Source of the DNA: Hericium rajendrae
Lineage: Eukaryota; Basidiomycota; Agaricomycetes; Russulales; Hericiaceae
Reading direction: 5' to 3'
Assembly (NCBI GenBank): GCA_033439255.1
Contig: CM065889.1
Coordinates: 2,162,261 to 2,226,260 of the forward strand
DNA length: 64,000 bases
The first letter of the stretch is position 1. The number at the start of each line of letters is the position of its first letter. Positions 7,218 through 58,315 of this stretch are shown here, in pieces. The notes under the pieces were generated by a model that saw only the letters and a program-made list of their open reading frames with translations, searched no databases and was not told where the DNA came from. The translations under genes were made by a program, and so were the position numbers.

Positions 7218-7493
7218 TGCGTTTTTTTATCTGCTTTTATCAATGAGAACGCATAATCCACAGATAGTGCGCCTGCATATACTGACATAGTGATATCGAC
7301 AACTAGGCAATCACAAGGCGTGTTGTGAGTGTTCTAGATTGGGTAAAAATACATGGAAAATTTACAGCCTTCTAAAAACATACCTGGATGTACCGCCCGA
7401 GGTCTATGGCAATGGGGCACTGAGGCACGATGAGTATTTGCGGAGTATTCGTGGACGCCTGCACAGGGTGCATGTGACCCAAACGTGACCTGC

Positions 7494-36010: not shown

Positions 36011-37258
36011 CATCAGGGAAATGATCAGATCCTATATAGCTCTATAAGTCCTACATAGATTTCCTAGGGCCATAGCAACGTCAAGTTCTACATAGCTCAT
36101 ATAGCTGTAGTGAGATGCTATGTAGTGCTATGTAGCTTGGCTGGGTTGCTATGTAGCTCTATGATAGCTATGATAGCTTCCTAGTCAGCTATGATATCTA
36201 TTATAGCAGACTTAGCTATACAATGTATGGAAGGTATCTTACTAATATAAGTTATGCTCAGTAGATACATTTATAAATTCTATCATAGCTACATTTTTAA
36301 AATTCATTATATAGCTTTAGTAGACTTTATAAAAGTCTACAATATTATATCCACTTTTATCACATGAAAATCAGACATCAACCAATATAAGATCACATCA
36401 AAAAGATTATATTCAAATCTAATACAGCTATTTGTAATCTACTACACAACTAAACTAAGTGTATATATATCTAGCAAGATAACAATTAATCATAATATCA
36501 CAAGGTTATATATATATATAAGCAAGAAAACTTACTAGCATGAGAAAAAAGCGAAAATCTAGAAGTATAAATTGTCAACAAAGATAATATGAGAAGTCTA
36601 CAAGTCTACAGTAAGTACTCACCAATATGATCAAAAAGCGAAAATCTAGCAACCTAGCAAGAGAAGACAAATCAGTATAAGAATATAGACCAATAATAAA
36701 AGAAAGCTTACCATAGGTAGTGGAGTCAAGAGCGAAAGGTAAAGTTAAGAGAGAAGAGCTCGAAGACGGAGGAGATGGTGGTGGTAAGAGAGAGAGAGAC
36801 GACGCGCGTCGCGCGAGCCTTATATAAGATTGCCAGCGGAGCCACAATTATCTCCGGGCCGGACACTGCCGGACGCGGCAACAGAGCTAGGCGGACAGAC
36901 TTCATTATATTGTCTGTGTTGCCCGGTAGTTCACAGTACAGTAGCTAGAAGTATTGCTCATACAATATATTCTTCTGATTATTCCACAGCTGTCGCTTTT
37001 TTCCCGTATATTATGCGATTTTATTTGATTTGTTGTGCCTTGTAGATGTGAACTTCGCGCGTTGAGCAGCGAAGTCGCGTCGTTTGTCTTCGTACTCTCG
37101 ACTCTCTCCTTGCCCACTCCCTCTCCTCTGGTCTCTCCTCCCTCTTCTCGTCTTCTGCCGTCTCTCGTCAACTTGAAGGGTTCCAGTGTCGGGGCTCGAG
37201 GGTCCAGGGGTACAGGTGAGTAATAAAAAACTATATTTCGTGTGTAATGTACTAATAT

Positions 37259-37292
37259 CGAGAGTGCCACTCGTCGACGAGTGGCACTCTCG
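37259..37292. repeat. Perfect 34-bp palindrome in copy 1
   Basis: Two 17-bp arms (cgagagtgccactcgtc and its complement) with no spacer. It could extrude a cruciform or bind a dimer. Confidence 0.9.
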
Positions 37293-37922
37293 TTTTCTCG
37301 TTTGTTTTCCACCCCCAACGTGCACCCTCTCCCTTCCAACACTCCGCCGCCCCGCTCTCGCGCACCCTCCGCGCCCATTCGCTTGCATTACCCGCGCCGC
37401 CGACCAACTACCGCCTCTGACGCATCGCGCTTGCCCCTGCGCACGGCCCCCGACTGTCCGCGCGCAGGGCCAGCACGACTGCGCCAGCGCACGCACGCAC
37501 GCCCGGGCCCGGTCAACATCACCCAGCTGCGCGTGCAGGCCTGCATGCGTGGATGGCTGCGCACGTCTACGCCAGCGCACGGACCCACCAACGCGCGCGT
37601 CTGCATACGGCCCCGCCTCCGCAGCACTGGCACACGGCCCTGCGCGCTCGCGCCAGCGCGCCCACCGGTACACGCCCCAGGCCATCTGCGCACGGGCGTG
37701 CCAGCACACGGCGCCGCGTTGACCCGTTGCCGTGGCAACTGGCACCAACGCGCGGAATGGCTGCCAGCGGCTCAGCTGCCCATGCCCGCACCTCGCCCAC
37801 CCCGCGTCCACTCGTGCGTAGAACGCCCCGCACCTGTTCAACGCCCCTCCGCGTTCCCTACCACGGTGCGCCTGTGCACGATGAGCACCGGCTCGTCGAC
37901 GACCACGCGCGCACGACACCCG

Positions 37923-38318
37923 CAGCCCGGATACGACCTCCGCAGCCCGGACACGACGCGTGCCAGCCATGAACGATGCCGGCAGCCCGCGAACGACGCC
38001 AGCAGCCCGCGAACGACGCCAGCAGCCCGCGAACGACGCCAGCAGCCCGCGAACGACGCCTGCAGTCCGTGCACGGCAGCAACAGCCCGTGAACGACGTG
38101 CGCAGCCCCGCGAACGATGTGCGCAGCCCCGCAAACGACGTGCGCAGTCCGCAAACGACACCCGCAGCCCAAGAATGACGCCGGCAGCCCAAGAACGACG
38201 CCTGCAGCCCGGCCACGATATCCGCAGCCCGCGTACCGCACCTGCAGCCCGCGCGCGACTCCTCCAGCCCGAAACGACGTTCGCGCACGACGCTTGCAGC
38301 CCGGACACCTGCGCATGG
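37923..38318. repeat. 20-bp-period GC-rich minisatellite in copy 1
   Basis: About 18-20 units with consensus CAGCCCGCGAACGACGCCAG, four of them nearly perfect near 37983-38060. The repeat lacks stop codons in several frames, which explains the long open frames on both strands. Confidence 0.85.
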
Positions 38319-38844
38319 CCCCAGTGCCTCGCGCGCAGTCCTCGTACCTCGCGCACGACCTGCGCGCTTCGCGTACGATCCCAGTGCCCCGCGCAACAGC
38401 CGTAACGACCCCGCACCTCACACACGACGTCCCGCGTGCCTACGACAGCATGCTTGGTGCCATGTCAGTGGTGTACCCCATGCCTGTTCCCTGTAGCTAG
38501 TATTTCATGTAGCTACATCAATGATTTGAACAAATTTACCTTGATGATCAAGCTTATAATCCTCCAATCTGAAGCATAGAAAACCTGACATTGATGCTTC
38601 TTGTGTTTACCTGAATGGTCATAGGGCATATACCTTTCATAGCATGCCTATGGGATTATATAGCAATCATAGCTACTCCTCACAACTACATAGTGCTATA
38701 TACCTTGTAACTACTGCTATGGAGACTATGATAGCCATCATAGCTCTATATAGATAAGAAGGGAGCTATGTAGGCCATATAGCCCTATCATAGACCACAT
38801 AACCTGACACTAGGCTATGTAGAATTTCCATTTCCCTGATGTCA

Positions 38845-41152
38845 TTATCGTTGCTCTTCCCCATCCTGCATGCATCTCCATTGCTGAGATAGGCTCTCAA
38901 TTCGGCGGCTCAAGTCTTCGCATAAACTTGGAATCGATCCGTCATCCCAATGATCATTGGGAGGGTTTCCCCTGCACTTGGAGGGCTGAGCCTATCGAAC
39001 AATTGGCACGTTGTAGGCGGTCACCATAGAGGTATCATTTTAAGTACACACCAGGATTACTTGTTGGGACAGCTCTGGTTCGTTGAAGAATGTCTTGGCA
39101 AAGTGCAATAAATAGACGCCGCAATCGCAGTGATTCGGTTGAGAGGGCACCTATAGCAGGAGTTTGAACAGCGCCCAGAAAGGAAAAGAGTGGTCGTACG
39201 TGAACTGTTTTGCCATGTGCGTGCCCTGTGTCCTCTAGATCCAAATTCTTTTTGTCCATTGCCTCGTATTTCAAGTATGCACCAAGCCTGTTCACGACCT
39301 TGGGGTGAGTTGAACCCATCGAGTCAAGAGTGAAGATATAGGTGCTGCCACGCAGGCGATCAGCGAGCATATTCAATCTTCAATGACACCTCGACCTCAC
39401 CTCCCAAGTTGTTGACTGTTGCCTCCCTGAGACGAGCTACGGGCATCACTGAGACATGAATCGGAGGCCGGTGCACCGGAGGTCGAACGAGAACTGAGTG
39501 CAGGATTGCGGGTGGCGAGTGGGTCAAGTGAAGCAGTCACTGGATGGCTTGTGATGTGAGAGGCCGCCGAACCAGACTCCACGATTCCCTGTTGTGCTGC
39601 GCTCGATTGTAGATCACAGGCCGCTCCTCGTTGCGGAAATAGAATATACTGTGGATGGGAAATGATGGCCAGATACCAATGAAAGCTACCCAGTGCGCGA
39701 TAAGTATGAGGCAATCCGAAAATCCCAGAGCAAACAGGATCTTACTCTTCGTTAATCGGGACAACAATATATTTTTTGTGGAAAATGTCGACTTTCGATG
39801 TCCATGTGCGGACACTCTTGTAACCATCTGTGGTCCTAGATGTCATGTGGGTACCGTGGTATCAGGATGTAAACTCATACCCCAAAACTCACTTGTTTTC
39901 TGACAGTTTCTTGTACAAGAAGGAGTTAAACAGGTGTATTTGTTCTGCAATTTCAGGTTTCCGTTGACGTAATTCGTCCAAGAACAGTCTGATCACACGT
40001 TCTGAGTGATTGCTCGAAGTATATGGTACCTCTTACCTCAGTCCAAATTCGATTACAGTGTCGTTCAAGAATTCTCCTGGTCTCAATCGCCCGCAATCGG
40101 CTCTTGTTATGTGCACCGCCCGAGATCCTGCTAAGGGGTACACCAAGACACTTCAGATGAAGTCAGCGGTGGTTGGGAAACGCGTGGGCAGAGTAAGATC
40201 TGTTACTTACACCTCCGGGGATTGGGAGATGTCGGATTCAGAATCGAGTGTATCTGCACTTGAAGATGCACGAGAAGGGAAGCGTGATAGGGAATGTGCT
40301 GCGGTGGAGGGGATACTGCCGTCGACTGGGACTGGGGAGATCAAGGATGTATAACCTGTTGAATCACCTGGTACAGAGGACGACTGGGGTACAACCCTCG
40401 AGGCAGACCCGTCATCTCGTCCATGGACAACACCCGCAGGTGGGTTGGATACTTGGCATGTCCTGTCCCAAAGCGACGCTGCAGTAGATGGTCTGTGATA
40501 TGTCAGAGTTTAAACCAATTGTATTCGTTTCCAGACAGGGAACGATGCATACGCAACATAGCGCACGTTTGATGTCCCTCTCGACAAGTGCGCGAGCAAG
40601 GATGTGTACCCATCCGGTTGCCATTCGGGGACGTTGGTCGTAAATCTAAACATCAGATCACCGGAATGACCGGCATTCCCTGACATGCGAGTGAGATGCA
40701 GGCTAGAAAGACAGCCAGCGTTACGTACCGGGCTTGAGCGCTGTGCAGTACCGGCCTTTGGCCCGCATCTTCGAAGAGGACTTGATCTTGACAGCAAGGG
40801 TATGTTGTACAGGTTGCTGTCGAGATGATGGTCAATTAAAACTCAACTTGTCTTAGACTGCGCCAACCTGGACATTCACAGCTACCACGGAGTCTACCGT
40901 ATGGATGGCGAGGTTGGTCCACAACATCACGGCTTCGATGACTGTGTCCACCAAGAGCAAGTAGCTATATTCCTCGTCCCATATAAGCGCGTAGCGAGTG
41001 AGAAGAGACGAATATTCGTCTGTGGCCATGATTTTGAGGCCTACCGCCCATCCACTGAGCGGAAGTTGGAAACGGCGAGGTAAGATGCAGGTTGTGGTGT
41101 TTAGATCCATGAGATCCAGAAGTGTCTTGGCTGGACTGTGGCCTGCCTTCAC
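38845..41152 (-). CDS. Ulp1-like (C48) cysteine protease
   Basis: Eleven exons join in phase to 580 aa: 41152-40868, 40816-40729, 40679-40553, 40492-40211, 40150-40037, 39988-39893, 39835-39746, 39685-39401, 39344-39200, 39150-39061, 38985-38845. The N-terminal ~165 aa are unassigned (LPLSGWAVGLKIMATDEYSS, YSYLLLVDTVIEAVMLW), then a Ser-rich linker. From ~270 is the C48 fold: CGRLRPGEFLNDTVIEFGLR, EQIHLFNSFLYKKL, KVDIFHKKYIVVPIN. All catalytic residues are present: His in FHWYLAIISHP (39681-39679), Asp in FTLDSMGS (39325-39323), Gln and Cys in SQPNHCDCGVYLLHF (Cys 39123-39121). The family removes SUMO-like modifiers; such multi-copy genes in basidiomycetes often ride on transposons. The frame looks intact. 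Element copy 1 is inserted just after the stop. Confidence 0.85.
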
Positions 41153-41705
41153 CCGACCCGATCACAAGCCACAGATCAGAATCTACAATCCACAATCCAA
41201 ACTAGAACTGTGATGTGACAACAAGGTCACAAACAGAAAGCGACTTACCGGTCTTCGGACCGTCGTCGAAGGCCAATCGTGACGAAGTCAGTGGGTTTAA
41301 TGACCGGCCCATGTGGTACCCGGGTGTAGCACGCGTCTATGAGTGGCCGGCTCGTGTACCATTTCAGCAAGAAAAAATCGGCTTATGGGAACTATATTGG
41401 TTATGTCTCGACAAGGTCAAGCTACATGTCAGTTGGTGATTTACTACTGGACGCATGCAACAACTACCTAAGTCGAACTTCCAAGGTGGAATCTGTATGG
41501 ACGTTCTGGACGTTCAATCAAGTCAACCTGCCAAGAACGAGTAGGATACATGGACATAAGAAGACGAAGAAGCAACGCAGTATTAGAACATGAACTTCGA
41601 TATCATATACTCGAACGCAGTGGAGATGAGGAACCTGCTAATTGTGCGTAGGTTACACGTCACAGACATTCCGTTTCTGGTTGGTAGGACGTTGCGTCTG
41701 TCACT
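41153..41705. other. Intergenic, nothing recognised
   Basis: Short plus-strand frames without motifs; upstream of the Ulp1-like gene and 3' of the next F-box gene. Confidence 0.35.
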
Positions 41706-43253
41706 CTATGCCCATCCGTCTGTATCATAAAAGCGGCCACAATAGTCGCTCTCGGGACAGAGAGTGGAATGAAGAGGAAGCTGCCACGCGCCGACTTCTC
41801 GATCACATATCCACCATGGCCCTTCTGATCCCTGTTGTCTTGCGATCTCTGTTGAGCAGTGCTTGCAGCCAGAGATAGTCGCTTGTTGTACATGCGACTC
41901 CATTTGCCGCGCTCGAACCCACTGCACTATCCCCGTGTGGTCGTCGTGCTCATAATGATTGATGTTGAATGCGAGGTGTTGTAGGCGCGGAACAGCAAAT
42001 GTACCATCAAACTGTAATAGATGGGGAAACAAAGACCAAGGATTCGGGACATCAAAATGAACCTTTTTTAGACCTGTAAAACGAGAGATGGAGGGGAGCA
42101 CCGTAGGAATGGAACCCGAGGCTGAGTCGAACACCACCCGCATCCTTGTAATATCTGTGAATGCAGCTATCTGGATAGAGGAGAGATCGAGAGCTTGTAA
42201 TATGGATGGGATAACGGTGATATGTCTATCACCGAGGCGCCATAGAAATCGCGGTCCATGTACCGGCGAGAAATGCTGACCGATATTTTGACCGACACAC
42301 CAAATGGCGACATGGGCTTCATTGAACCTCATGGAAAGCCGGAATGTATGCAGGATCTGTGTGGAAAAGAGAGACTCTAGGTACTTTCCAATAATGGTAG
42401 GGGTCTCCGCCCGTGGGGATGCATGGCTCCAGTCGTCCACCTTGAGGCAGATGGCCATGCCTTCCGCCCCCGAGATAGCACGAGCAAGCAGGACACAATC
42501 TGTTGACGATCTGGTTCCCAGGCAGAGAGACATGAGGCGGGGTAAAGACACGTGTATGGATTCGTCTGGCGGCGGTATCGGGGCCGCATTTTCCAGATGC
42601 AAAGTCTCGATCCGTCTCATGCACGTCAAACTGTCAAAGAGCAGTGTATATGGTGTCTGTATCGCAGATGAGTTTCCTGAGTCGCATTTTACTGTGAGGG
42701 ATACGAGGTTCGTAGGCACGACTGTTTGCCATGCAATATTGAGATTGAGCAGGGTAAATGATTTCAGCATGGGCGTTGCGTCCGGGATTGACGTGAGTGG
42801 GAAAGTGCTTTCAAAAACATTGTGATGGAGCGTCAGATGCTGGAGATTCATCGCCGCTGGCATGATCAAAGCCAGAGCACTGTCGACAGTGGAATCATCC
42901 GTTAAATCAATATGCAAGGTTTCGATACGCGAGGCATTTCCTTGGATAAAAGATGCGAGGATGGAGGAATAATGGGCTGTGATGGACAACGGAACTGGCC
43001 TGGCCATCTCACTCCAAAGCTGAGCACATCTCAGGCCGCGTTTAAGGCTCACGTGTCTCCATAACCCCGGATAGCGAAGAACCTCCTTTCTCCAATGCTG
43101 GCAGACTAAACTGAGAGTTACTGCAAAGGCGGGGTCGCCGTTGGTTGCTAACAAGAAAATGGCGTCGAGGATTTCACGGGGCAGTCTCTGCCACGGAAGT
43201 TGGGAGTTCCTCTTGTAGTGGACCATGGAGGCAACACGTTCTGCCATGCGCAA
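41706..43253 (-). CDS. F-box/LRR-like protein E
   Basis: A single-exon frame of 515 aa. F-box at ~residues 19-75 (LPWQRLPREILDAIFLLATN ... AVTLSLVCQHWRKEVLRYPG ... LWRHVSL). Leucine-rich segments follow (NASRIETLHIDLTDD, AAMNLQHLTLHHNVFE, MLKSFTLLNLNI, LHTFRLSMRFNEAHV). Unlike F-box genes A, B and D it has no acidic tail. The C-terminal part contains a Cys/His-containing stretch (QATISGCKHCSTEIARQ). Expected role: SCF substrate adaptor, target unknown. It is not a close paralogue of A or B. Confidence 0.8.
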   Translation of the reverse strand: MRMAERVASMVHYKRNSQLPWQRLPREILDAIFLLATNGDPAFAVTLSLVCQHWRKEVLRYPGLWRHVSLKRGLRCAQLWSEMARPVPLSITAHYSSILASFIQGNASRIETLHIDLTDDSTVDSALALIMPAAMNLQHLTLHHNVFESTFPLTSIPDATPMLKSFTLLNLNIAWQTVVPTNLVSLTVKCDSGNSSAIQTPYTLLFDSLTCMRRIETLHLENAAPIPPPDESIHVSLPRLMSLCLGTRSSTDCVLLARAISGAEGMAICLKVDDWSHASPRAETPTIIGKYLESLFSTQILHTFRLSMRFNEAHVAIWCVGQNIGQHFSPVHGPRFLWRLGDRHITVIPSILQALDLSSIQIAAFTDITRMRVVFDSASGSIPTVLPSISRFTGLKKVHFDVPNPWSLFPHLLQFDGTFAVPRLQHLAFNINHYEHDDHTGIVQWVRARQMESHVQQATISGCKHCSTEIARQQGSEGPWWICDREVGAWQLPLHSTLCPESDYCGRFYDTDGWA

Positions 43254-44680
43254 TATGGCTTCATCGTAGGTACCGCAAAGATGCAGCGTATTTTTTAACG
43301 AGGATCTAGCCTGGGTTAGTACTGGAGAGAACGGGACATGTTCGTTGAATTACTCGATTTTTTCAATGTAATCGGCTGGATGCATGGCCATGCGACTTCA
43401 ATGGCGTGGGCTGACGCAAAACGAGAAAAGAGGTGATATCAGCAAGGATGGTGGTGTTAATGCATGAAATCCCACCTTTTTGACAAGATACGTTTGATCA
43501 GGGAACTTTTTCCGGAAGTAGAGTGAATCGAGGACTGGGGATAGCGGGGAGCTGGAATGCAGGACACAGTTCGCCGTCCTTCCCGCACTCATTCCCAAAC
43601 TCAAAGAGAGGGAGTCATATCTCACGATTGTCATCCATCCACCAATGCGGCGTACATGTAGCCTATTTCAATAAACGCCTTCAAGGGTGCGAGTCTTGAC
43701 ATGAGGACGAACGTGCGATATTGGCGGAGACTTGGTCTTCTGTTGGATGGAGGATATGCTGTGGTTCGCGAACTTGAGCGACTGCAGCGTCATATGCACA
43801 TTTTTTTTACTACTTTCGCGAAGGGAGCTGCCATCATCGCAGCAGCCAACACTCACTGCCCTGAATGCCTCTACCCAGCGGAAAACCGAAGGCCCCAACC
43901 GTTTGTAAAAGTAAACAGAGACACAAATGAATTTGAGGCTAAAGCAGTATAGGAGATGTCAACCTGGCTGCTTTTCGTCAGAGTCGTTACTGTAGCAGCC
44001 GGGATAGCTGAGCATGCTGCATACGACGCAAGCCTGGGGAGTGTCAATTACTGGGTATGTCCGAGCCTAGCGTTGAGCCAAACATCAAGGAAATGCTTGG
44101 GCGTGGGAACCGGGCCACTACAGCCCATGAGCCGCGCGCGTGGAGACCCTCTTCCCCAACGAAAGCTGTCCTGAATCGACTAACACATTGTTTTGTCCAG
44201 CGTCTGGCTCCTCTCTTATACTGAGTATCTTTAGAGACTATTGCCATCACAAGTCACGAGATCTTGTATCGGAAGCGACCGTAAACTACTGTGTCTTATA
44301 CCACGCACCGTTTGGCACTTGCCAATCCCTTTGAGTGAGCATGACAATCAGCATGCAGGGTCCTGCCCTACGCAACAGTTGAGCCTCATAGAGAGCAGGC
44401 AGGGCGGGGATATGATGACCAGGTGGCTCTATCACCGGAATGTATTCACGACATATGCTTAGCGTCCCGTCTCGCCGAGTGCGTAATGATTGCACTGGTA
44501 TGTATAACTCGCAGTAACAGTTTATTCGAGCAATAGAAGATGCTTTGCGAGCTCAAAATCTACTTTCTGCGTTATTTGCAGGAAGTAAAGGCATGACTTC
44601 ATGTCACAGACGTGACAGTTGACAGCCCTTTGGAGTCGGGGACGGGCGCATGAACCGCTGCGATGTAACTGTTCTGTACA
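43254..44680. other. Intergenic, no confident gene
   Basis: A plus-strand stretch at 43840-43950 (HCPECLYPAENRRPQPFVKV ...) looks coding-like but short. No domain recognised elsewhere. Confidence 0.3.
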
Positions 44681-44740
44681 CCGCCGCCAGGCTCGAACTC
44701 GCTCTACACGCTTCCGGTGACAGTTCGAGCCTGGCGGCGG
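44681..44740. repeat. Perfect 19-bp inverted repeat with 22-bp loop
   Basis: CCGCCGCCAGGCTCGAACT at 44681-44699 is exactly complementary to 44722-44740. It lies about 210 bp upstream of the small gene at 44951 and would fold into a stable hairpin. The arm contains GTTCGAGCC, the core of a Pol III B-box, but no tRNA fold surrounds it. Confidence 0.75.
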
Positions 44741-44950
44741 GGATCTTTCTCTCACATCGGGCGTCTCCGCGAGACCACGGACGCGCGGGACTGCGTGTCG
44801 CAGAATCACGTGACATTGTGACATGCATCCTAATCGTTTTTATTGATACCGATCCTCTCACCGGTCACCATTAACTCCCTACACGATCTCACAAGCAGAC
44901 CACCCGTACTACTGTTCACGCTATACATTTCTTTCTCAAAAAACATCGAC

Positions 44951-45427
44951 ATGCCGTGAGTACCTAACTTCCATAACATAACTCAAAGCCTAGTTACGAC
45001 TCGTTACTCGAACAGAGATCAATCCGAAGGCGCCGTAGCACAAAACCAGCATGTCTACAAAAAACCCAACCGCCTCGAAGGCACCAATCCCAGAAATATC
45101 GTCGATGGTCAACTCCTATGCCCTATCCATCATTCCCTTGACTCACACATTGCTGATCCAGTCGGTTCCGATATTGATGCCCTAGACAAGGCCGAGCCCG
45201 CGTTCATCAAATTCTTGTCTAAGCTTGAAATGGACAACGCGTTCTATGTTGCACGCTGGTACACTGTTGGCGTCACGAGTACCAATCAGTTGAGCTGGCT
45301 GCTTGACATGATCGACGATGATCATGACAACATCCGCAACGAATTTATAAACTGTGGGTTCACACCCTTCGAGTTCATGCAAATTGTACAGGTTTTGAAG
45401 GATCATATGAAGATCACACCTACATAG
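44951..45427 (+). CDS. Unassigned 138-aa protein
   Basis: Two exons: 44951-44955 (ATGCC) and 45016-45427, joined by a GTGAGT...ACAG intron in phase. The protein begins MPDQSEGAVAQNQHVYKKPN and has a compact helical C-terminal half (AFIKFLSKLEMDNAFYVARW, LSWLLDMIDDDHDNI, FTPFEFMQIVQVLKDHM) resembling a SAM-like or death-domain-like helical bundle, a layout common in small agaricomycete proteins. Function unknown. The tiny first exon right after ATG, the TCACGTGA site at 44809-44816 and the 19-bp inverted repeat upstream suggest a regulated real gene. Confidence 0.65.
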
Positions 45428-46272
45428 ACCCCCCTCCCCGTACGACGTGTTCCATACATACGTTTTACAGAATATCATACATGCCATGAGACATGGAGGT
45501 GTTGGGAGATTTTGAATTGTACCATTTTTCTCTTATCGTGTTGAGAACCTAATATTTGAGGCTCTACCACTATCCACAGGTGTACACTGCCGTCTGAGCT
45601 CCGATGCAGGAGCGATGTGAAATGAAGCGATACCGCGTCCGCATCGAAACCTGCATAGGGGCCGTGAGATTTCCCTCGTAGAGCCCACATAGAGGTTATG
45701 TACATGGATGCGACGTCGTGTCCTAAATACGAGCCATAATCCTCTTCGACAAATTGAAGATCTTCCATGGCTCGCAAGCAAAAGCCCGGGCGCACGTCGA
45801 ATCAACAGAAGTCTGGAGCCGCCTGCGCTCGAGAAGGAAGGGCGCGACAACGTTTGATCGAGAACATTTATAGGGATATTCGGGCAAGGGGCAAGGGGCG
45901 TCCGGAACCTAAGCGCCCAAATATGACTACCCAGTGGTAGTATACGAAAATCAAGGACCCCGAAAGCCAACGCCACAATTGGCACTATCCTCACCGTACT
46001 TAGTGAAATCCCTCTCGGAGACTTGTTCGTCGTTATACAAAGTGGTGTAAAGCCATGTCTATCATAGTCTACTATATGTCATGAATAGACACAAATATTT
46101 TCGTGATTTCTACTGCCACCATTCTGCGACAATTCAAGTCCCATGCGAGCACCCAGCGGTACGGCGCGCGCGCGCCCATGCCCGCTGTGTCGAGTCGCGC
46201 CATTCAACAGACCGCGACGCGACGACAACGCGAAACCCTCGCGCTGCGATTCCGACTGGACTCAGCGCGCAG
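45428..46272. other. Intergenic with a doubtful small frame
   Basis: A minus-strand frame from 45768 to 45478 (MEDLQFVEEDYGSYLGHDVA ..., 97 aa with a plausible composition) may be a small gene or fragment; no family recognised. The rest is the upstream region of the transposase-like gene. Confidence 0.25.
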
Positions 46273-48825
46273 ATGAGCGCACCTCATGACCTTCACGATC
46301 CTATTGTATTCCACTTTCATTCATTCTTTGGCCATTCTCTCGATGTTGATGACTCCGCGCATGCTGAGTATGGCTCAGAAAGCGATACTGACAATGATAT
46401 ATCCTTTCAGGAACTTGAATCCTATGACTTAGACCTTAATCCAGAGGATTCCTTTCGATTTGTTCATGTCCAGGTGATAGAGCAAGTGCCTGCAACATGC
46501 ACTACCACTGAGAAGCCAGTCGAGGATCTCGAGGATAGGCAAAGCTCACCAGTTCAAGGTCCATCTCGACTTTCCTCGCTAGCAAGGAGCCAATTCATTC
46601 CAACCCCATGCGATCTATGCGGCATTTCCATCAATATAACCTTGAATTCTAGACATGCGCTTACCGTGCACCGCAACAGCAAGAAATGCAAGTCGCAGCA
46701 ACGAAAGCTGTTGACACGGCATCCGCAGCCACAGATATCAGTGCCAACGCCGATGGTCATTGACGAACAGACTGCACTTCCCATCATTCGAATGATACCG
46801 CCAACACCTCAGCGTATGACGCTATCATCGTCCAATCGCGCGACCTCGGAAGGGAATCTTACCAGCTCGCTCTCGGCAACTCATTCTTCCGAGAGCACCT
46901 GGCTTCACCCAGCTCGGCTTCCTACAAGGTCAACATCTGTGCCGGTTCGAGTCAGCGAGAGCTCCTACTTCTCCGGAGATGAATATGATGGCGCCGAATC
47001 CGAAACCAGGAGCGAGATGAGCAGCTCAGACTGGGGAGAAAATGAGGCCTTCTGTGCCGGTGTCCCGCTTGTATGGCATGCAGGGCCTGTTTTCACGACG
47101 TTCCCGTGGCAAATCTTTGATGATTGCGATGGGACGCTTGGTTTCTGTCTAGCCGGATTCGAGAATGGCGATGGTGGAGGGATCATATGGATCCGATCTG
47201 ATCGTTGCGCGGGAAAGAGGGATCATTTGGCGGATGCTTGCGAGGCATGTCGTCTTCTCCAACCTCCACGCGTACTGCGCCTTGCGGACCTGCGAGCACA
47301 AGCAACAAACACGGAGCACTGGGCGTCGAAGTGGCTCACCTATAATCAGCTCGTAGCTAAGCTCAACCAGAAAGCCAAGGAGATTGCAGAGCTGAGGATC
47401 AAGGTCAGCATGGCTTCCACGTTGAGCAATGATCAGACGACTTACGAGTTTTCCTTAGGCCAGTAATCAAGCTCTTAAAGTCCATCGTCTAACTGCCCCA
47501 CTCGATGATCATAAACGTCTGATGATGGCCGTCGCAACGAAAGATGTCAAACGTGTTCATCAGCTATTCAATCTTGCGCTCAAAGAGGGAATGAGCCCAC
47601 GCGCTATCTTGTCTCGAATCGAACGGGCTGTTCAGGGCGTTTACGAGGTTCGCGGGTATGACGATTTTGATCTCGACCTTGCAAGGCTCCTCCGGCATCT
47701 CTCTGGCCGAAAGGGTTTGTTCGCTCTGTCTGAGGCGATTGGCTTACCCTCATCCACTACCGTCCAAAATAGCCTTTTATCACCTGTCATCACGCCCTGC
47801 TCATCCCGTCCTAAGCCGTCTGAAATTACCCAAAATATCTTGTCTTGCTCTCGTGCATTGAAGAAGCCAGCGGAGGTAGCTGCTTGTGGGTTCGGCTTGA
47901 TGATTGACGGGCTGGCATTAAATCAACGTGCCCGATGGTGGAAGTCAACAAATCAGATCGTCGGATTTTGTCGGGAACATACCGAAGGACTAGACCTTGC
48001 TATGACCAATCTCCCAGCCGTGCTCAAGATTGTAGATGCTGTGCATGGTACCCACCCTTCATGCCATTACGCTCGCGAGTCTACAGTTGCTGCTATAGGC
48101 AGGTTTGGCCAAGAAGGATATGAGCCCCTTCCCGTTATGGTGTCCGGCACATGCAAGTCAGAGACGTCAGAGGACTTTGCCGTCATCATTCGCATGTTGA
48201 TTGAGCAGTGGGTGATGCATGGCTCGGGCCCCCTTTGGATCGTTTCGACAGATGGCGACGCGACGTTTCGAGGCACGATGTTCCGAGTCCTTATGGATAC
48301 TGAGTTCGAGAAGACAGGGCGACTCTATGCTCTGCTATCGCCGCTGGAAGGCTTGAATCTCAACTGCAGCAGAGACGAAATTGTGATGTGCCCTGATCCC
48401 AAGCACATCCTGAAGCGTATGGGATTACTTTATTATGCAATGGCTACATATATCTGACGCATTCTCACAGGTGCTGCTACACTGCTCTGCAGCAAAGACG
48501 GTATGCTTATACATGATGCCATCGTCAACCGCAATACGCTGGAGAAACACCTTTTGCGATTGCCTGGACAGAACGCCAAGAGTGTCGCCGTGTTGATAGA
48601 CCCGAAGGATCATCAGAATGTTCCACGTGCTATCCGTCTGCTTACTGCGCTGTCTGCGGTTGCAGACATGGATTCTTCATCCCTTGACCCTTCTGGACAG
48701 TCTGATATGTGCGCTGTCAGGGTCAGTGCTAAACTATGGAAGTCTCTCCTTGAAGCATTTGTGAATCCGGCATTTTCGCTGTCGGACCAGCTTCGGTCTC
48801 TGTCCACATATGCGCATTTGTGTTT
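46273..48825 (+). pseudogene. Zinc-finger transposase-like gene, 5' part
   Basis: Exons 46273-47403, 47459-48416 and 48471-48825 join in phase. The start is chosen as the Met of MSAPHDLHDPIVFHFHSFFG. The N-terminal ~115 aa are acidic, then a C2H2-like finger (CDLCGISINITLNSRHALTV H...K C), a Ser/Pro-rich linker, and a long C-terminal part with GFGLMIDGLALNQRARWWKS, IVSTDGDATFRGTMFRVLMD and MCPDPKHILKR. The Asp-rich blocks in these positions are those of a multi-copy agaricomycete gene family that I recall as transposase-like; I cannot name it with certainty. The gene is split at 48825 by element copy 2 inside ...STYAHLC(F) and resumes at 51662. Confidence 0.7.
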
Positions 48826-49348
48826 CATCAGGGAAATGGAAATTCTACATAGCCTAGTGTCAGGTTATGTGGTCTATGATAGGGCTATATGGCCTACATA
48901 GCTCCCTTCTTATCTATATAGAGCTATGATGGCTATCATAGTCTCCATAGCAGTAGTTACAAGGTATATAGCACTATGTAGTTGTGAGGAGTAGCTATGA
49001 TTGCTATATAATCCCATAGGCATGCTATGAAAGGTATATGCCCTATGACCATTCAGGTAAACACAAGAAGCATCAATGTCAGGTTTTCTATGCTTCAGAT
49101 TGGAGGATTATAAGCTTGATCATCAAGGTAAATTTGTTCAAATCATTGATGTAGCTACATGAAATACTAGCTACAGGGAACAGGCATGGGGTACACCACT
49201 GACATGGCACCAAGCATGCTGTCGTAGGCACGCGGGACGTCGTGTGTGAGGTGCGGGGTCGTTACGGCTGTTGCGCGGGGCACTGGGATCGTACGCGAAG
49301 CGCGCAGGTCGTGCGCGAGGTACGAGGACTGCGCGCGAGGCACTGGGG

Positions 49349-49745
49349 CCATGCGCAGGTGTCCGGGCTGCAAGCGTCGTGCGCGGAACGTCGTTTCGGG
49401 CTGGAGGAGTCGCGCGCGGGCTGCAGGTGCGGTACGCGGGCTGCGGATATCGTGGCCGGGCTGCAGGCGTCGTTCTTGGGCTGCCGGCGTCATTCTTGGG
49501 CTGCGGGTGTCGTTTGCGGACTGCGCACGTCGTTTGCGGGGCTGCGCACATCGTTCGCGGGGCTGCGCACGTCGTTCACGGGCTGTTGCTGCCGTGCACG
49601 GACTGCAGGCGTCGTTCGCGGGCTGCTGGCGTCGTTCGCGGGCTGCTGGCGTCGTTCGCGGGCTGCTGGCGTCGTTCGCGGGCTGCCGGCATCGTTCATG
49701 GCTGGCACGCGTCGTGTCCGGGCTGCGGAGGTCGTATCCGGGCTG
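49349..49745. repeat. 20-bp minisatellite in copy 2
   Basis: Complement of the copy 1 array (unit CTGGCGTCGTTCGCGGGCTG) with one extra base. Confidence 0.85.
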
Positions 49746-50375
49746 CGGGTGTCGTGCGCGCGTGGTCGTCGACGAGCCGGTGCTCATCGTGCACAGGCGC
49801 ACCGTGGTAGGGAACGCGGAGGGGCGTTGAACAGGTGCGGGGCGTTCTACGCACGAGTGGACGCGGGGTGGGCGAGGTGCGGGCATGGGCAGCTGAGCCG
49901 CTGGCAGCCATTCCGCGCGTTGGTGCCAGTTGCCACGGCAACGGGTCAACGCGGCGCCGTGTGCTGGCACGCCCGTGCGCAGATGGCCTGGGGCGTGTAC
50001 CGGTGGGCGCGCTGGCGCGAGCGCGCAGGGCCGTGTGCCAGTGCTGCGGAGGCGGGGCCGTATGCAGACGCGCGCGTTGGTGGGTCCGTGCGCTGGCGTA
50101 GACGTGCGCAGCCATCCACGCATGCAGGCCTGCACGCGCAGCTGGGTGATGTTGACCGGGCCCGGGCGTGCGTGCGTGCGCTGGCGCAGTCGTGCTGGCC
50201 CTGCGCGCGGACAGTCGGGGGCCGTGCGCAGGGGCAAGCGCGATGCGTCAGAGGCGGTAGTTGGTCGGCGGCGCGGGTAATGCAAGCGAATGGGCGCGGA
50301 GGGTGCGCGAGAGCGGGGCGGCGGAGTGTTGGAAGGGAGAGGGTGCACGTTGGGGGTGGAAAACAAACGAGAAAA

Positions 50376-50409
50376 CGAGAGTGCCACTCGTCGACGAGTG
50401 GCACTCTCG
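50376..50409. repeat. Perfect 34-bp palindrome in copy 2
   Basis: Identical to those at 37259-37292 and 56735-56768. Confidence 0.9.
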
Positions 50410-50842
50410 ATATTAGTACATTACACACGAAATATAGTTTTTTATTACTCACCTGTACCCCTGGACCCTCGAGCCCCCGACACTGGAACCCTTCAAGTTG
50501 ACGAGAGACGGCAGAAGACGAGAAGAGGGAGGAGAGACCAGAGGAGAGGGAGTGGGCAAGGAGAGAGTCGAGAGTACGAAGACAAACGACGCGACTTCGC
50601 TGCTCAACGCGCGAAGTTCACATCTACAAGGCACAACAAATCAAATAAAATCGCATAATATACGGGAAAAAAGCGACAGCTGTGGAATAATCAGAAGAAT
50701 ATATTGTATGAGCAATACTTCTAGCTACTGTACTGTGAACTACCGGGCAACACAGACAATATAATGAAGTCTGTCCGCCTAGCCTCTGTTGCCGCGTCCG
50801 GCAGTGTCCGGCCCGGAGATAATTGTGGCTCCGCTGGCAATC

Positions 50843-50958
50843 TTATATAAGGCTCGCGCGACGCGCGTCGTCTCTCTCTCTCTTACCACCACCATCTCCT
50901 CCGTCTTCGAGCTCTTCTCTCTTAACTTTACCTTTCGCTCTTGACTCCACTACCTATG
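50843..50958 (+). promoter_or_regulatory. Promoter-like block inside the element
   Basis: TTATATAA (50843-50850) is followed by a CT-rich leader and an ATG at 50956 immediately adjoining GTAAGC, a canonical 5' splice site. Downstream are repeated acceptor-like TTGCTAG/TTCTAG sites and a repeated ATTTTCGCTTTTT segment. It looks like a Pol II promoter for a spliced, perhaps non-coding, transcript running toward the AT-rich end. The equivalent blocks in copies 1 and 3 are on the minus strand. Confidence 0.5.
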
Positions 50959-51659
50959 GTAAGCTTTCTTTTATTATTGGTCTATATTCTTATACTGATT
51001 TGTCTTCTCTTGCTAGGTTGCTAGATTTTCGCTTTTTGATCATATTGGTGAGTACTTACTGTAGACTTGTAGACTTCTCATATTATCTTTGTTGACAATT
51101 TATACTTCTAGATTTTCGCTTTTTTCTCATGCTAGTAAGTTTTCTTGCTTATATATATATATAACCTTGTGATATTATGATTAATTGTTATCTTGCTAGA
51201 TATATATACACTTAGTTTAGTTGTGTAGTAGATTACAAATAGCTGTATTAGATTTGAATATAATCTTTTTGATGTGATCTTATATTGGTTGATGTCTGAT
51301 TTTCATGTGATAAAAGTGGATATAATATTGTAGACTTTTATAAAGTCTACTAAAGCTATATAATGAATTTTAAAAATGTAGCTATGATAGAATTTATAAA
51401 TGTATCTACTGAGCATAACTTATATTAGTAAGATACCTTCCATACATTGTATAGCTAAGTCTGCTATAATAGATATCATAGCTGACTAGGAAGCTATCAT
51501 AGCTATCATAGAGCTACATAGCAACCCAGCCAAGCTACATAGCACTACATAGCATCTCACTACAGCTATATGAGCTATGTAGAACTTGACGTTGCTATGG
51601 CCCTAGGAAATCTATGTAGGACTTATAGAGCTATATAGGATCTGATCATTTCCCTGATG

Positions 51660-53129
51660 TTTGCACTCTTTACAAAGCACAAGTCTTCTTTTATGACAGG
51701 CCAGCTGTATAGCAACACGCAAGCCCTGGTCAAAGCTGCCTTCATATGTGTTGCGAGGCAATCTCTTCTTGATCCAACGAAGCCATTTTACCTCTATCAG
51801 CTAGGTTCAGACCGCCTCGAGGAAATTTTCTGCGAAGTACGGACAATGTCTCACGACTGCAACTGTGATATCCTACAGCTTTGCGATAGGCTTTCAGAAT
51901 CTGCCGACTGTATTAAACCTAAAGAGGATGCACGGGCGTGAGAGGCGCAGATAGCCAGACATGCGAAGAGTAATACCTAGACCAGGCGCATCCGCGCCCG
52001 CAGAGCGCAGGGCAGGAATGGGCGTGACAGGGCCGGCGACCAGCGCAACGGAAGGTGGGGCACGAGATGAGGAAATAGAACAGGAAAGGCGGGCCATGAG
52101 TGTGCGAAAGAGCGCAACAGACCCGTCTAATAAGGCCCCTGCGGATGAGGGGACTCGTGAGATGAAACGGGGGCGCGCATATGGGGTGCGGGCAACAGCG
52201 CGGGCGACATGGACCCCCGATCTGGCAAAGCTGACAAAGTATGGTGACAGCGACGTGTTACCCTATCGGGACGAGACAGGTGCGATATTCCTAGTACCTT
52301 TCCTTCACGTTCAGGATATTGATTGATCCCCACTAGGTTCTCGATGTTTCCTCATTGGCGGCGCGACTCAAATTCTCAGTGAGCGAAGTGCAGGCTCTGA
52401 TAAGATCGCTTGCTATCAATGCGGCGCTCTTATTGCACAAGACCGAGCTCGTGCGCACGTTGGGATCCACGTACTACGCGCCCTTGTAGGGATTGTCGAA
52501 CCTGACTTACGGGAACAGGTGCGTATCCAATGGCCCTATCCTTCATTACTGATCCTCATTGCTATGTCGTGGCTCGCGCTTCCGATCAGGTCATCCCCAA
52601 CATGGCATGTGGGTTTTGTGGCCGCAATGGGTGCAGCATAGCGCTGAAGAAGAGCCCTTCAAAGTCGTTCCAAGCAGTCATGAACTGCCCTCGCCAGCAC
52701 CCATTTAGGTACAACACTGCGCTCTTGTCTTCCGAGCGGACTGCCTCGACAAATATCCCGATTCAATGCTCACTTTGCGGCCCTGATCCTTTCTCGAAAC
52801 TAGTACCAACGTTTTGGAAGTACGCTATGTATGACCACATTTGCATCCACCACCCTCATCACTGGGATAATGTCAAGCATGTTCCACAGAACCTCGACCA
52901 CGAGCTCAATAAAAAGCTCATTCTATCGAGCGATGAGTTCTCCAGGATCACAAAGGACCAAGTTTTCACGGCCTCGCTCAATACCTTGGTTTCTTTGCCC
53001 TTCGCTGGATGTCAAGTAATGCCCATACCAGCGGTCGCTCCCTCAAAGCGCAAGGCGCCCTCGCCGCGCCCTCGGGATAACTCCAACGGTGCTCCTAGCA
53101 TGTCAAAGAGGCCGAAGACCTCGAGATAA
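51660..53129 (+). pseudogene. Zinc-finger transposase-like gene, 3' part
   Basis: Continuation of the gene interrupted at 48825. From 51662: ALFTKHKSSFMTGQLYSNTQ, LVKAAFICVARQSLLDPTKP, LGSDRLEEIFCEVRTMSHDC, NCDILQLCDRLSE, conserved in this family. The frame stops at 51941 and the middle (51940-52336) is unclear, possibly decayed. It resumes at 52337-52518 (DKIACYQCGALIAQDRARAH) and 52590-53129, with Cys pairs (CGFCGRNGC, IQCSLCG) and His residues (YDHICIHHPHHW) that look like a zinc-binding C-terminal domain, and ends in a basic PSKRKAPSPRPRD tail. Confidence 0.65.
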
Positions 53130-54450
53130 ATCAGTACGACTGCAATCTTTCAGTAATTTTTGTCACAATAGCACACAATTAACTCTTGCATTATAGCTTC
53201 ATACACAATACTTTCAACCTACATACATTCTATAGCTTCTATTCGTATGTTGCGCGACGTAATTACAGTACAACTACACTTCTACTCCTTACGACTGCGA
53301 CGAGGACTTTGTTATGGCGAGCATGCCTACTAGCTGACTAAGATATCCTTCCAAATATAGTCGTGGTAGTGCTTTGATGGGGTCCCTCACTAGAGGGTGT
53401 TTGTTTTGGTGGTTTCTGATCCCGGACGCCCCTTGATGTAACGAAATGGCTCGTGTAATCAGGAGTCCACTGAAGAACTGCGATGGGGAGACTAATCTGT
53501 GAACAGCGAGTCTGACATAGGATAGAGTAAGTACGAAATATGATGCCGGGCGTGTTAGGACGAGCGCGTCGCATCCAGCATCGCGTCGTGCTGTGCTCAG
53601 CTCACTTCTGCAGACCGTCACACTCGTCAAGGACTCCGCAGACGTGTTCTGGGAGACAGCGGAGGAATTTTCGCATGATGTCGGGCCGTCCGGTGTGCAA
53701 AAATCAGTAGCAGGCGCCGTCTCGGTGATGAAGTTTTGAGTGCCCACCCTGGAGAGGCCTCGAGCGCGCGAAACGGCCACCTTCAGTTCCTACACATCAA
53801 TAAGAACAGCTCAGGACATAATAGCTATATAGATAGTTTGGTCCCACCTTTTGAGGACATAAATCACCCTGCAGCTAACATAGTTCGGCCAGAACTCAGA
53901 TCACAAGTTACTGCAATATGATTGCTTGCCCGCGGCAGCGCGCCCCCCCAAAAAAAGGCATGACACGTATTCATGGTCTCCACCAAGGAATGGTCATTGT
54001 AAGCTACCTTAATACTAACAAATTCACCCCGTTCGATGATACTCGCCCCGACAAGCAGCAGCAGAGGCCTTAGATAGAGGCCTGTGATTGGCCGATTTTT
54101 TATATTATTAATATTTGAGTTATTATTAATAAGCCCACAGGCATGAACAGCATGCCGGCATCCTTGGTGCCAAGGAGCGACAAGTCATTAGTCAGGTTTC
54201 CTGAAGATCACGTCACCGCCAGTTTGCAGATGTTACACACTACACAAGATACGGTGGAGCTGGCGCTCCGCCAATCTTGTTGAGGGTTCAGATTCATGTT
54301 TATATTCCATTTGGCCAAAAGTTATGAGACCAGATGTCATGAACCGTCATCTTCGCCGGAAAGTATTGCAGATGACAATATGTGCATGGCCATAAAATAC
54401 TACAATAAAATACCAACTCAATGGTGTACATACGGCCGTGCTTTCTAGCG
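53130..54450. other. Intergenic; one doubtful minus-strand frame
   Basis: A minus-strand frame of 163 codons (53780-53289) lacks a recognisable domain. Near 54095-54135 is an AT-rich TATTATTAATATTTGAG-type stretch. No gene is supported. Confidence 0.3.
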
Positions 54451-54454
54451 CATG

Positions 54455-55484
54455 CTAGCCAGACGCCATCACATAGACTCGCAAAGTGGCATTAATCCAT
54501 GGGAGAGCCGTTATTGACAGACAGGTGGAACTACAGACTGTACAAATACGAAACGTACCAGAGCTATTTGAGCTGGCTAAATCCGGCACGCGCAGAACGT
54601 CAACCGCGACGCGCATGTCCCGCAAATCCACCATCATGACCATGTACATCACAAACGCGGAGATGGGGTACGTCATCAATACCATGCTCAGGCGAACGCT
54701 GCCCAACGAAGAGTGCACATTGAACATACGCGTGATCGCACTATCTTCGGTCAGAAGCGCGGAAGAACACAGGAGATGGCGAAACACACATAATGAGTCC
54801 TCCGACGTGTACCCCACCGCATCGCCGTCGTTCTTCGCGATCACGAAGAGGACGTTCGTGTTCAGCGTGGCCGACAGCGCGACAGCGCCCGGGATGCGAC
54901 ACAGCGCGAGACCCGATTTGGTACTGAAACTACTCGATGACATGTAGATGAATGGATGCATACCTCATCCAAAGCGAGCAAGGCGTATAGACGAGCGCGA
55001 TGTTGCTGTGCGGGCCGATAGACCGCGTTCGGCGTGGGGTAATATTGTATCTGAACGCATTGATGTGGTACAGCGCAAGATCGACGCATCGAGCACGGAA
55101 AAGTCCAACGTGTCATGGAAGAAGAGCATGTTGTGGCGCGATGGGAATACTACCTCGCCAGCATTAAATGAGTGGTCCGGGGATAAGCGCGAGCAAAGGC
55201 ATGCTGAGTGGGATGGGGTGAGACATCTCGCACGACTCGACAACGTGCGCGCCGTTCGCGAGCTCGGTGGTCATAAAGCAAAGATAGAAATACGGGCGCA
55301 CCTCCCATTCATAAACAAAACACATCCTACGGTTTCGCATCACGGTGATCAGCACAGAAGAAGGACGCAACGGCACACCTGGCACGGTCTCTTTCCGGTC
55401 GGAGGGGATGCCCGCCCAAAGCGCATTGCATCTCTCGAAGATCACACACAACCTGTCCAGATGTCACACACAGGCAGACACCAG
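54455..55484 (-). pseudogene. Possible membrane-protein gene remnant
   Basis: Minus-strand stretches contain hydrophobic segments (RLSMVLMTYPISAFVMYMVM followed by MVDLRDMR) and, further upstream, VIFERCNALWAG, reminiscent of the transmembrane parts of fungal seven-helix-like (DUF6533-type) proteins. I could not assemble a full frame. Element copy 3 is inserted at 55485 and similar hydrophobic frames (LFLYYYPH ...) reappear beyond it at 58316-58640, so one gene may have been split. Low confidence. Confidence 0.25.
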
Positions 55485-56734
55485 CATCAGGGAAATGATC
55501 AGATCCTATATAGCTCTATAAGTCCTACATAGATTTCCTAGGGCCATAGCAACGTCAAGTTCTACATAGCTCATATAGCTGTAGTGAGATGCTATGTAGT
55601 GCTATGTAGCTTGGCTGGGTTGCTATGTAGCTCTATGATAGCTATGATAGCTTCCTAGTCAGCTATGATATCTATTATAGCAGACTTAGCTATACAATGT
55701 ATGGAAGGTATCTTACTAATATAAGTTATGCTCAGTAGATACATTTATAAATTCTATCATAGCTACATTTTTAAAATTCATTATATAGCTTTAGTAGACT
55801 TTATAAAAGTCTACAATATTATATCCACTTTTATCACATGAAAATCAGACATCAACCAATATAAGATCACATCAAAAAGATTATATTCAAATCTAATACA
55901 GCTATTTGTAATCTACTACACAACTAAACTAAGTGTATATATATCTAGCAAGATAACAATTAATCATAATATCACAAGGTTATATATATATATAAGCAAG
56001 AAAACTTACTAGCATGAGAAAAAAGCGAAAATCTAGAAGTATAAATTGTCAACAAAGATAATATGAGAAGTCTACAAGTCTACAGTAAGTACTCACCAAT
56101 ATGATCAAAAAGCGAAAATCTAGCAACCTAGCAAGAGAAGACAAATCAGTATAAGAATATAGACCAATAATAAAAGAAAGCTTACCATAGGTAGTGGAGT
56201 CAAGAGCGAAAGGTAAAGTTAAGAGAGAAGAGCTCGAAGACGGAGGAGATGGTGGTGGTAAGAGAGAGAGAGACGACGCGCGTCGCGCGAGCCTTATATA
56301 AGATTGCCAGCGGAGCCACAATTATCTCCGGGCCGGACACTGCCGGACGCGGCAACAGAGGCTAGGCGGACAGACTTCATTATATTGTCTGTGTTGCCCG
56401 GTAGTTCACAGTACAGTAGCTAGAAGTATTGCTCATACAATATATTCTTCTGATTATTCCACAGCTGTCGCTTTTTTCCCGTATATTATGCGATTTTATT
56501 TGATTTGTTGTGCCTTGTAGATGTGAACTTCGCGCGTTGAGCAGCGAAGTCGCGTCGTTTGTCTTCGTACTCTCGACTCTCTCCTTGCCCACTCCCTCTC
56601 CTCTGGTCTCTCCTCCCTCTTCTCGTCTTCTGCCGTCTCTCGTCAACTTGAAGGGTTCCAGTGTCGGGGGCTCGAGGGTCCAGGGGTACAGGTGAGTAAT
56701 AAAAAACTATATTTCGTGTGTAATGTACTAATAT

Positions 56735-56768
56735 CGAGAGTGCCACTCGTCGACGAGTGGCACTCTCG
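56735..56768. repeat. Perfect 34-bp palindrome in copy 3
   Basis: Same sequence as in copies 1 and 2. Confidence 0.9.
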
Positions 56769-57396
56769 TTTTCTCGTTTGTTTTCCACCCCCAACGTGCA
56801 CCCTCTCCCTTCCAACACTCCGCCGCCCCGCTCTCGCGCACCCTCCGCGCCCATTCGCTTGCATTACCCGCGCCGCCGACCAACTACCGCCTCTGACGCA
56901 TCGCGCTTGCCCCTGCGCACGGCCCCCGACTGTCCGCGCGCAGGGCCAGCACGACTGCGCCAGCGCACGCACGCACGCCCGGGCCCGGTCAACATCACCC
57001 AGCTGCGCGTGCAGGCCTGCATGCGTGGATGGCTGCGCACGTCTACGCCAGCGCACGGACCCACCAACGCGCGCGTCTGCATACGGCCCCGCCTCCGCAG
57101 CACTGGCACACGGCCCTGCGCGCCGCGCCAGCGCGCCCACCGGTACACGCCCCAGGCCATCTGCGCACGGGCGTGCCAGCACACGGCGCCGCGTTGACCC
57201 GTTGCCGTGGCAACTGGCACCAACGCGCGGAATGGCTGCCAGCGGCTCAGCTGCCCATGCCCGCACCTCGCCCACCCCGCGTCCACTCGTGCGTAGAACG
57301 CCCCGCACCTGTTCAACGCCCTCCGCGTTCCCTACCACGGTGCGCCTGTGCACGATGAGCACCGGCTCGTCGACGACCACGCGCGCACGACACCCG

Positions 57397-57792
57397 CAGC
57401 CCGGATACGACCTCCGCAGCCCGGACACGACGCGTGCCAGCCATGAACGATGCCGGCAGCCCGCGAACGACGCCAGCAGCCCGCGAACGACGCCAGCAGC
57501 CCGCGAACGACGCCAGCAGCCCGCGAACGACGCCTGCAGTCCGTGCACGGCAGCAACAGCCCGTGAACGACGTGCGCAGCCCCGCGAACGATGTGCGCAG
57601 CCCCGCAAACGACGTGCGCAGTCCGCAAACGACACCCGCAGCCCAAGAATGACGCCGGCAGCCCAAGAACGACGCCTGCAGCCCGGCCACGATATCCGCA
57701 GCCCGCGTACCGCACCTGCAGCCCGCGCGCGACTCCTCCAGCCCGAAACGACGTTCGCGCACGACGCTTGCAGCCCGGACACCTGCGCATGG
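57397..57792. repeat. 20-bp minisatellite in copy 3
   Basis: Same length as the copy 1 array; I see no difference in it. Confidence 0.85.
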
Positions 57793-58315
57793 CCCCAGTG
57801 CCTCGCGCGCAGTCCTCGTACCTCGCGCACGACCTGCGCGCTTCGCGTACGATCCCAGTGCCCCGCGCAACAGCCGTAACGACCCCGCACCTCACACACG
57901 ACGTCCCGCGTGCCTACGACAGCATGCTTGGTGCCATGTCAGTGGTGTACCCCATGCCTGTTCCCTGTAGCTAGTATTTCATGTAGCTACATCAATGATT
58001 TGAACAAATTTACCTTGATGATCAAGCTTATAATCCTCCAATCTGAAGCATAGAAAACCTGACATTGATGCTTCTTGTGTTTACCTGAATGGTCATAGGG
58101 CATATACCTTTCATAGCATGCCTATGGGATTATATAGCAATCATAGCTACTCCTCACAACTACATAGTGCTATATACCTTGTAACTACTGCTATGGAGAC
58201 TATGATAGCCATCATAGCTCTATATAGATAAGAAGGGAGCTATGTAGGCCATATAGCCCTATCATAGACCACATAACCTGACACTAGGCTATGTAGAATT
58301 TCCATTTCCCTGATG

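Follow-up and report, generated by a model that had tools for sequence, protein, structure and literature searches.

The window analysed here is the final 64 kb of contig 12 (C12) in the 46.8-Mb, 19-contig genome of Hericium rajendrae. It harbors three near-identical copies of a DNA transposon without a recognisable transposase, each bounded by 13-bp terminal inverted repeats (TIRs) and a 2-bp target duplication. Sequence comparison placed them as follows.

36011..38841, plus strand: element copy 1, 2831 bp
48826..51659, minus strand: element copy 2, 2834 bp, inverted
55485..58315, plus strand: element copy 3, 2831 bp
36011..36023 (plus strand), 51647-51659 (minus strand) and 55485-55497: left TIR CATCAGGGAAATG, 13 bp, of copies 1, 2 and 3
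38829..38841 (minus strand), 48826-48838 and 58303-58315: right TIR of copies 1, 2 and 3
36009..36010 (left) and 38842-38843 (right): 2-bp target duplication TC of copy 1, exact
48824..48825 (left) and 51660-51661 (right): 2-bp target duplication TT of copy 2, third base also matching
55483..55484 (left) and 58316-58317 (right): 2-bp target duplication AG of copy 3, exact

The TIRs are perfect over 13 bp in each of the three copies, which differ from one another by five single-base insertions or deletions (indels) and by no substitution. When the 2.5-kb flanks were compared by BLAST, they were unrelated, and the sole similarity was the 1175 bp between copies 2 and 3 where the right flank of the one and the left flank of the other physically overlap. 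The copies are therefore separate insertions, and a segmental duplication is ruled out. An earlier sequence-only reading of this DNA had described three copies, the second inverted, with 13-bp TIRs, duplications of TC, TT and AG, and about five single-base indels. Coordinates, TIRs and duplications proved exact, the indels number five, and the near-identity of the copies supports the recent movement that it had proposed.

The same reading had suggested a BLASTN comparison with the assembly. With copy 1 as the query, two further near-identical copies were found on the same contig (C12:1187339 and C12:1771232), as well as many diverged relatives, about 66-91% identical in pieces among the matches listed. 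The five near-identical copies together contain five indels and two substitutions. The TIR 13-mer occurs exactly at 47 places in the genome and its reversed control at none. Because a broader right-end pattern (CATCAGNNAAAT, 6 bases and TCTACATAG, with at most 2 mismatches) was found at 244 places against 0 for the control, the window-type elements form a large group of families; exact window-type right ends number 85. Of the 25 complete copies that were read, two measure 5.4 and 5.9 kb and the others 2.58-2.96 kb. Comparison of the flanks, also proposed earlier, gave an exact 2-bp target duplication in 24 of the 25. The third base matched in copy 2 of the window but in none of the other 23 copies compared at that base, which sets the length of the duplication at 2 bp. 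The duplications seen (TC, TT, AG, AC, TG, CG and others) are not confined to TA, the target that Tc1/mariner elements duplicate. The lone copy without a matching duplication, L064, is one of an inverted pair on contig 3 (C3:2231917-2234597 and C3:2251401-2254081), 99.96% identical and about 17 kb apart. Only one element end was found at L054, and the TIR match at L053 was taken as a chance match, since it sits among long open frames, with no right end in the 3.6 kb read.

The ends of the element are distinguished by arrays of a short motif.

36011..36310, plus strand: left subterminal region with 10 CTAYNRTAG-type motifs
38542..38841, plus strand: right subterminal region with 6 CTAYNRTAG-type motifs

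The intervening 2.2 kb contains none, the mononucleotide-shuffle means being 0.05 (left), 0.05 (right) and 0.17 (between), and only seven occur in the 55.5 kb of the window outside the copies. The subterminal motifs that the sequence-only reading had noticed in all copies thus resolve into arrays of this type, and their layout suggests that they are likely to serve as transposase-binding arrays. CACTA elements carry subterminal repeat arrays as well. An alignment of 17 elements (from 24, after removal of four near-identical copies, both long members and L064) was examined in 50-bp steps. The mean pairwise identity was 0.86-0.91 in the first 150 bp, which is among the best-conserved parts, 0.51-0.77 at element positions 150-1300, 0.07-0.57 in the GC-rich middle to about position 2450, and 0.79-0.93 in the last 230 bp.

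No transposase was detected inside the element, in agreement with the sequence-only reading. A Pfam search with three frames of copy 1 returned nothing at E ≤1, and the genome-wide search with PF18759, the Plavaka domain, placed no match inside the window copies. A protein hidden in the GC-rich middle was also rejected on the Pfam result, and the middle is the least conserved part. That reading had also proposed looking for longer members that share these TIRs and carry a transposase gene. The outcome was negative for the two long members read: L051 (5.9 kb) and L056 (5.4 kb) show only low-complexity frames when inspected by eye, and none of the 132 Plavaka matches of the genome falls in either. 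Both look composite or nested and were rejected as autonomous copies. The window as a whole had no Rfam match at gathering scores.

Work from 2025 on DNA transposons of fungi (PMC12730594) groups Plavaka with CACTA/EnSpm, Mirage, Chapaev and Transib in the CMCT clade, and assigns to PlavakaB, which is known from Agaricomycotina, the termini 5'-CATCA..TGATG-3' and duplications of 2 or 3 bp. The window ends, CATCAG..CTGATG, fit these termini, and the 2-bp duplications of 24 of the 25 complete copies fall within this range. PlavakaB elements also encode PF18759, which the window copies do not, and the assignment is made by ends and duplication only; because the copies show no transposase, we read them as non-autonomous. 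The window family is a new non-autonomous family of the already known PlavakaB type. We estimate a probability of roughly 0.8 that the window elements are recent insertions of such a family, with a Plavaka transposase supplied in trans. The sequence-only reading is supported in taking this for a non-autonomous TIR element with non-TA 2-bp duplications that needs a transposase in trans, and CACTA-like elements for the nearest named kind. Its statement that the element fits no superfamily is not supported, given the match in termini and duplication length and the abundance of Plavaka domains in the genome. PlavakaA, which requires TGT..ACA termini, was rejected, and so were the TA-target elements ESTA and PHISTA as described in the accessible part of PMC12730594.

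The genome contains 132 matches to PF18759 (best E 3.9e-124), of which 75 were placed; four Plavaka loci were read. One of them, L075, ends in TTTTGCTGATG at a jump in G+C content. Searched as a pattern (CATCAGCAAAACCCAAAAT, at most 3 mismatches), this end occurs at 55 places, whereas the reversed control has 4. A CATCAGCAAAA-type end lies 2.7-5.1 kb 3' of 11 of the 75 placed domains in the right orientation, the gene that supplied the pattern included, and none of the 75 has a wrong-orientation end within 6 kb 3'. Under random placement the number averaged 0.36 and never exceeded 3 in 500 trials, in a control for which the sizes of three contigs were guessed and whose uniform placement ignores the clustering of transposons. 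Two pairs of Plavaka-type ends flank Plavaka genes, with spans of 10.6 and 10.9 kb; C4:1685208-1695833 and C4:1908647-1919580 are examples of complete Plavaka elements. Since such ends lie 3' of Plavaka genes or bracket them, CATCAG..CTGATG ends belong to Plavaka elements in this genome. Eight further pairs, found by the pattern search, are only 192-616 bp apart and resemble miniature inverted-repeat transposable elements (MITEs), which indicates that short derivatives with Plavaka ends exist.

C2:3298315-3298930: MITE-sized pair of CATCAGCAAAA-type ends
C4:1745814-1746026: MITE-sized pair of CATCAGCAAAA-type ends
C4:1900670-1900872: MITE-sized pair of CATCAGCAAAA-type ends
C6:2369321-2369534: MITE-sized pair of CATCAGCAAAA-type ends
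C7:2699845-2700066: MITE-sized pair of CATCAGCAAAA-type ends
C9:1935357-1935569: MITE-sized pair of CATCAGCAAAA-type ends
C17:58534-58725: MITE-sized pair of CATCAGCAAAA-type ends
C17:171052-171243: MITE-sized pair of CATCAGCAAAA-type ends

In the left parts of L072 and L075, a divergent, intron-containing gene-like stretch was seen by eye on the opposite strand beside the Plavaka transposase.

The CATCAG core is common to the window ends and the ends 3' of Plavaka genes, but the subterminal motifs differ in the four loci, and this is among several observations that weigh against a Plavaka transposase as the mover. No Plavaka gene with window-type ends (CATCAGRRAAAT together with CTAYNRTAG arrays) was found. 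Among the 85 exact window-type right ends, a single one is correctly oriented and no more than 6 kb 3' of a placed Plavaka domain, and it looks like an insertion into that gene; two others are at such a distance in the wrong orientation. Random placement predicts 0.52. The four Plavaka loci contain 29, 97, 86 and 63 TCTGA/TCAGA subterminal motifs and 1, 0, 0 and 0 CTAYNRTAG motifs, and a scan of three Plavaka loci (L072-L074) revealed no hairpin module like that of the window elements (see below). With no matching partner found and with different subterminal motifs, it is not established that the window family descends from any Plavaka element known in this genome. That the family works like Plavaka, and is most likely moved by it, is well supported.

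Other movers were considered. The transposase might be that of CACTA/EnSpm proper (Transposase_21) or of an undescribed relative in the same clade with CATCAG ends. The genome has 31 Transposase_21 matches, of which 29 exceed the cut-off, and the accessible part of PMC12730594 gives mostly CA..TG termini and 2-5 bp duplications for the clade as a whole. However, the same source describes EnSpm families with CAC..GTG termini and 3-bp duplications, as opposed to CATCAG and 2 bp here, and membership of CACTA/EnSpm was rejected on both points. Transposase_21 genes were also rejected as neighbours: a single match of the 31, below the cut-off, lies within 10 kb of one of the 85 right ends, which points the wrong way. 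We regard a mover of this kind as unlikely. A transposase of the KDZ (Kyakuja-Dileera-Zisupton) group hardly comes into consideration, although KDZ has the most matches of the three groups searched (172) and Kyakuja elements also have CA..TG termini, because KDZ duplications measure 7-8 bp (PMC12730594, accessible part) against 2 bp in 24 of 25 copies here; the positions of KDZ genes and element ends were compared by eye. The sequence-only reading had allowed for a transposase of an unknown superfamily with 2-bp duplications. This would agree with the failure to find, among the genes examined, a transposase recognising ends with CTAYNRTAG arrays, but it is very improbable, as this combination of termini and duplication has been published for PlavakaB (PMC12730594), and Plavaka transposase domains are abundant in the genome.

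The window-type elements scanned also carry an unexpected feature, an intron-like module with a hairpin.

37216..37292, plus strand: intron-like module with GTGAGT, TACTAAT and a 34-bp hairpin (element position 1206-1282)
37259-37292 (copy 1), 50376-50409 (copy 2, minus strand) and 56735-56768 (copy 3): 34-bp perfect hairpin

When L002 and L051-L074 were scanned, such a hairpin turned up in every locus that holds a window-type element, but not in L053, where there is no element, or in the Plavaka loci L072-L074. GTRAGT lies 41-47 bases 5' of the hairpin in 24 of the 25 printed modules (L056 has none), and in those 24 a branch-point-like motif was seen by eye near the hairpin. Of these 25, two belong to an adjacent element whose ends differ (L071), and one is outside any recognised element (L064, position 256). 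At L071:3140-5001, beside a relative of the element, a CATCAG-ended stretch starts that has TCTGA motifs and two hairpin modules in the part read; the module is therefore common to elements with different ends. A pattern for the full module, which takes in the splice donor and the branch point, matches 117 places in the genome (reversed-pattern control, 0), and modules sometimes stand three in a row (e.g., C12:1031880, 1032221 and 1032542).

The general palindrome AGTNNNNCTCGNNNNCGAGNNNNACT was found at 180 places, with a control of 0. At 50 printed places, representing 30 distinct sequences that are not all independent, 191 of 200 pairs at the four unconstrained stem positions were complementary, whereas 2000 shuffles of the arms among places averaged 130 and never exceeded 152. 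Between families the stem letters differ, yet the arms still pair. In 24 modules, the 150 bases 3' of the hairpin are C-rich (0.41-0.56) and contain AG 34 times against about 91 expected, and GA 117 times. Six of these modules have no AG in this tract; in the other 18, the context of the first AG is CAGCC in 8 and NAGCC in 13. Four folded modules gave z-scores of -3.7 to -5.5, as any strong hairpin would. Among 12 imperfect hairpins oriented by eye, the putative RNA strand has G-U in 5 and A-C in 7, which indicates no RNA preference, and selection on RNA through tolerance of G-U was rejected; 11 of these hairpins are compatible with C-to-T change at a CG site. Selection at the RNA level is therefore not shown, and a palindrome that protein binding or template switching maintains in the DNA is an equally open reading.

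The proposed parts comprise a strong 5' splice site, a branch-point-like motif some 40 nt further on, a hairpin of variable stem sequence and an AG-poor, C-rich tract. We put forward only tentatively, as a possibility somewhat short of even odds, that they form a selected non-coding RNA or DNA device, present in at least 117 places and in more than one transposon-like family, which might act as an intron whose acceptor the hairpin withholds or draws nearer, or as a palindromic site bound by a host or transposon protein. If so, it would tie transposon transcription to splicing or silencing, and would represent a splicing-linked or palindrome-based control device common to non-coding transposon families. 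In Cryptococcus, transposons are reportedly silenced through stalled spliceosomes, and a withheld acceptor could, speculatively, be likened to this. The module is a more novel part of the finding than the element family. A literature search covering titles and the openings of abstracts returned no description of either.

The element and the window contain the following other features.

36820..36827, minus strand: TATA-box-like TTATATAA, by eye
37726..37739, strand not assigned: second short inverted repeat GTTGCCGTGGCAAC, from the sequence
37908..38279, plus strand: tandem repeat (20-bp unit, 18.5 units) within the GC-rich middle, which is poorly conserved
2053-3570: frame with F-box-like match (Pfam)
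5583-7226: frame with F-box-like match (Pfam)
7966-9609: frame with F-box-like match (Pfam)
29008-30498: frame with F-box-like match (Pfam)
41706-43349: frame with F-box-like match (Pfam)
16466-17503: frame with PIF1-like helicase match (Pfam)

On the minus strand, TTATATAA is followed 3' by a CT-rich stretch and then a GTAAGC donor-like site (by eye), and it may have a promoter role. The inverted repeat GTTGCCGTGGCAAC resembles an RFX X-box, and longer palindromes around a similar core are present in relatives. A short inverted repeat around GTTGCC..GGCAAC was noted in the GC-rich middle of several elements. Ten long frames of the window were tested; one of the five long F-box-like frames exceeds the Pfam cut-off. 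The F-box-like matches, and the many Plavaka, KDZ and Transposase_21 matches of the genome, are in keeping with a mushroom-forming basidiomycete as host.

A Plavaka-type DDE transposase from elsewhere in the genome would bind the 13-bp TIRs together with the short-motif arrays behind them, and would move the element by cut and paste into 2-bp staggered cuts. The location of all five near-identical copies on one contig suggests a recent burst with local hopping. The PlavakaB-type assignment removes an apparent new superfamily, and annotators gain a recognisable non-autonomous Plavaka-type family in mushroom genomes. The very recent insertions may be useful for catching Plavaka activity.

In Marasmius oreades, non-autonomous DNA families are classed by TIR and duplication length, and KDZ and Plavaka together account for roughly half of the DNA elements, according to the accessible parts of two accounts (PMC8290104, PMC9674265). 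The non-autonomous elements described there are mostly <1 kb, unlike those of the window, and these parts mention no family with the present ends or hairpin module. CACTA/EnSpm elements belong to the same broad clade and share CA..TG ends, but as far as the accessible description goes they differ in their own CAC..GTG ends and 3-bp duplications. From PlavakaB, the window elements differ in having no recognisable transposase, in subterminal arrays of CTAYNRTAG instead of the TCTGA of four Plavaka loci of this genome, and in complete copies mostly of 2.6-3.0 kb with the intron-hairpin module. They resemble PlavakaB, as its accessible description gives it, in the 5'-CATCA..TGATG-3' termini and the 2-bp duplications, in a genome with many PF18759 domains, some of which have CATCAG ends downstream.

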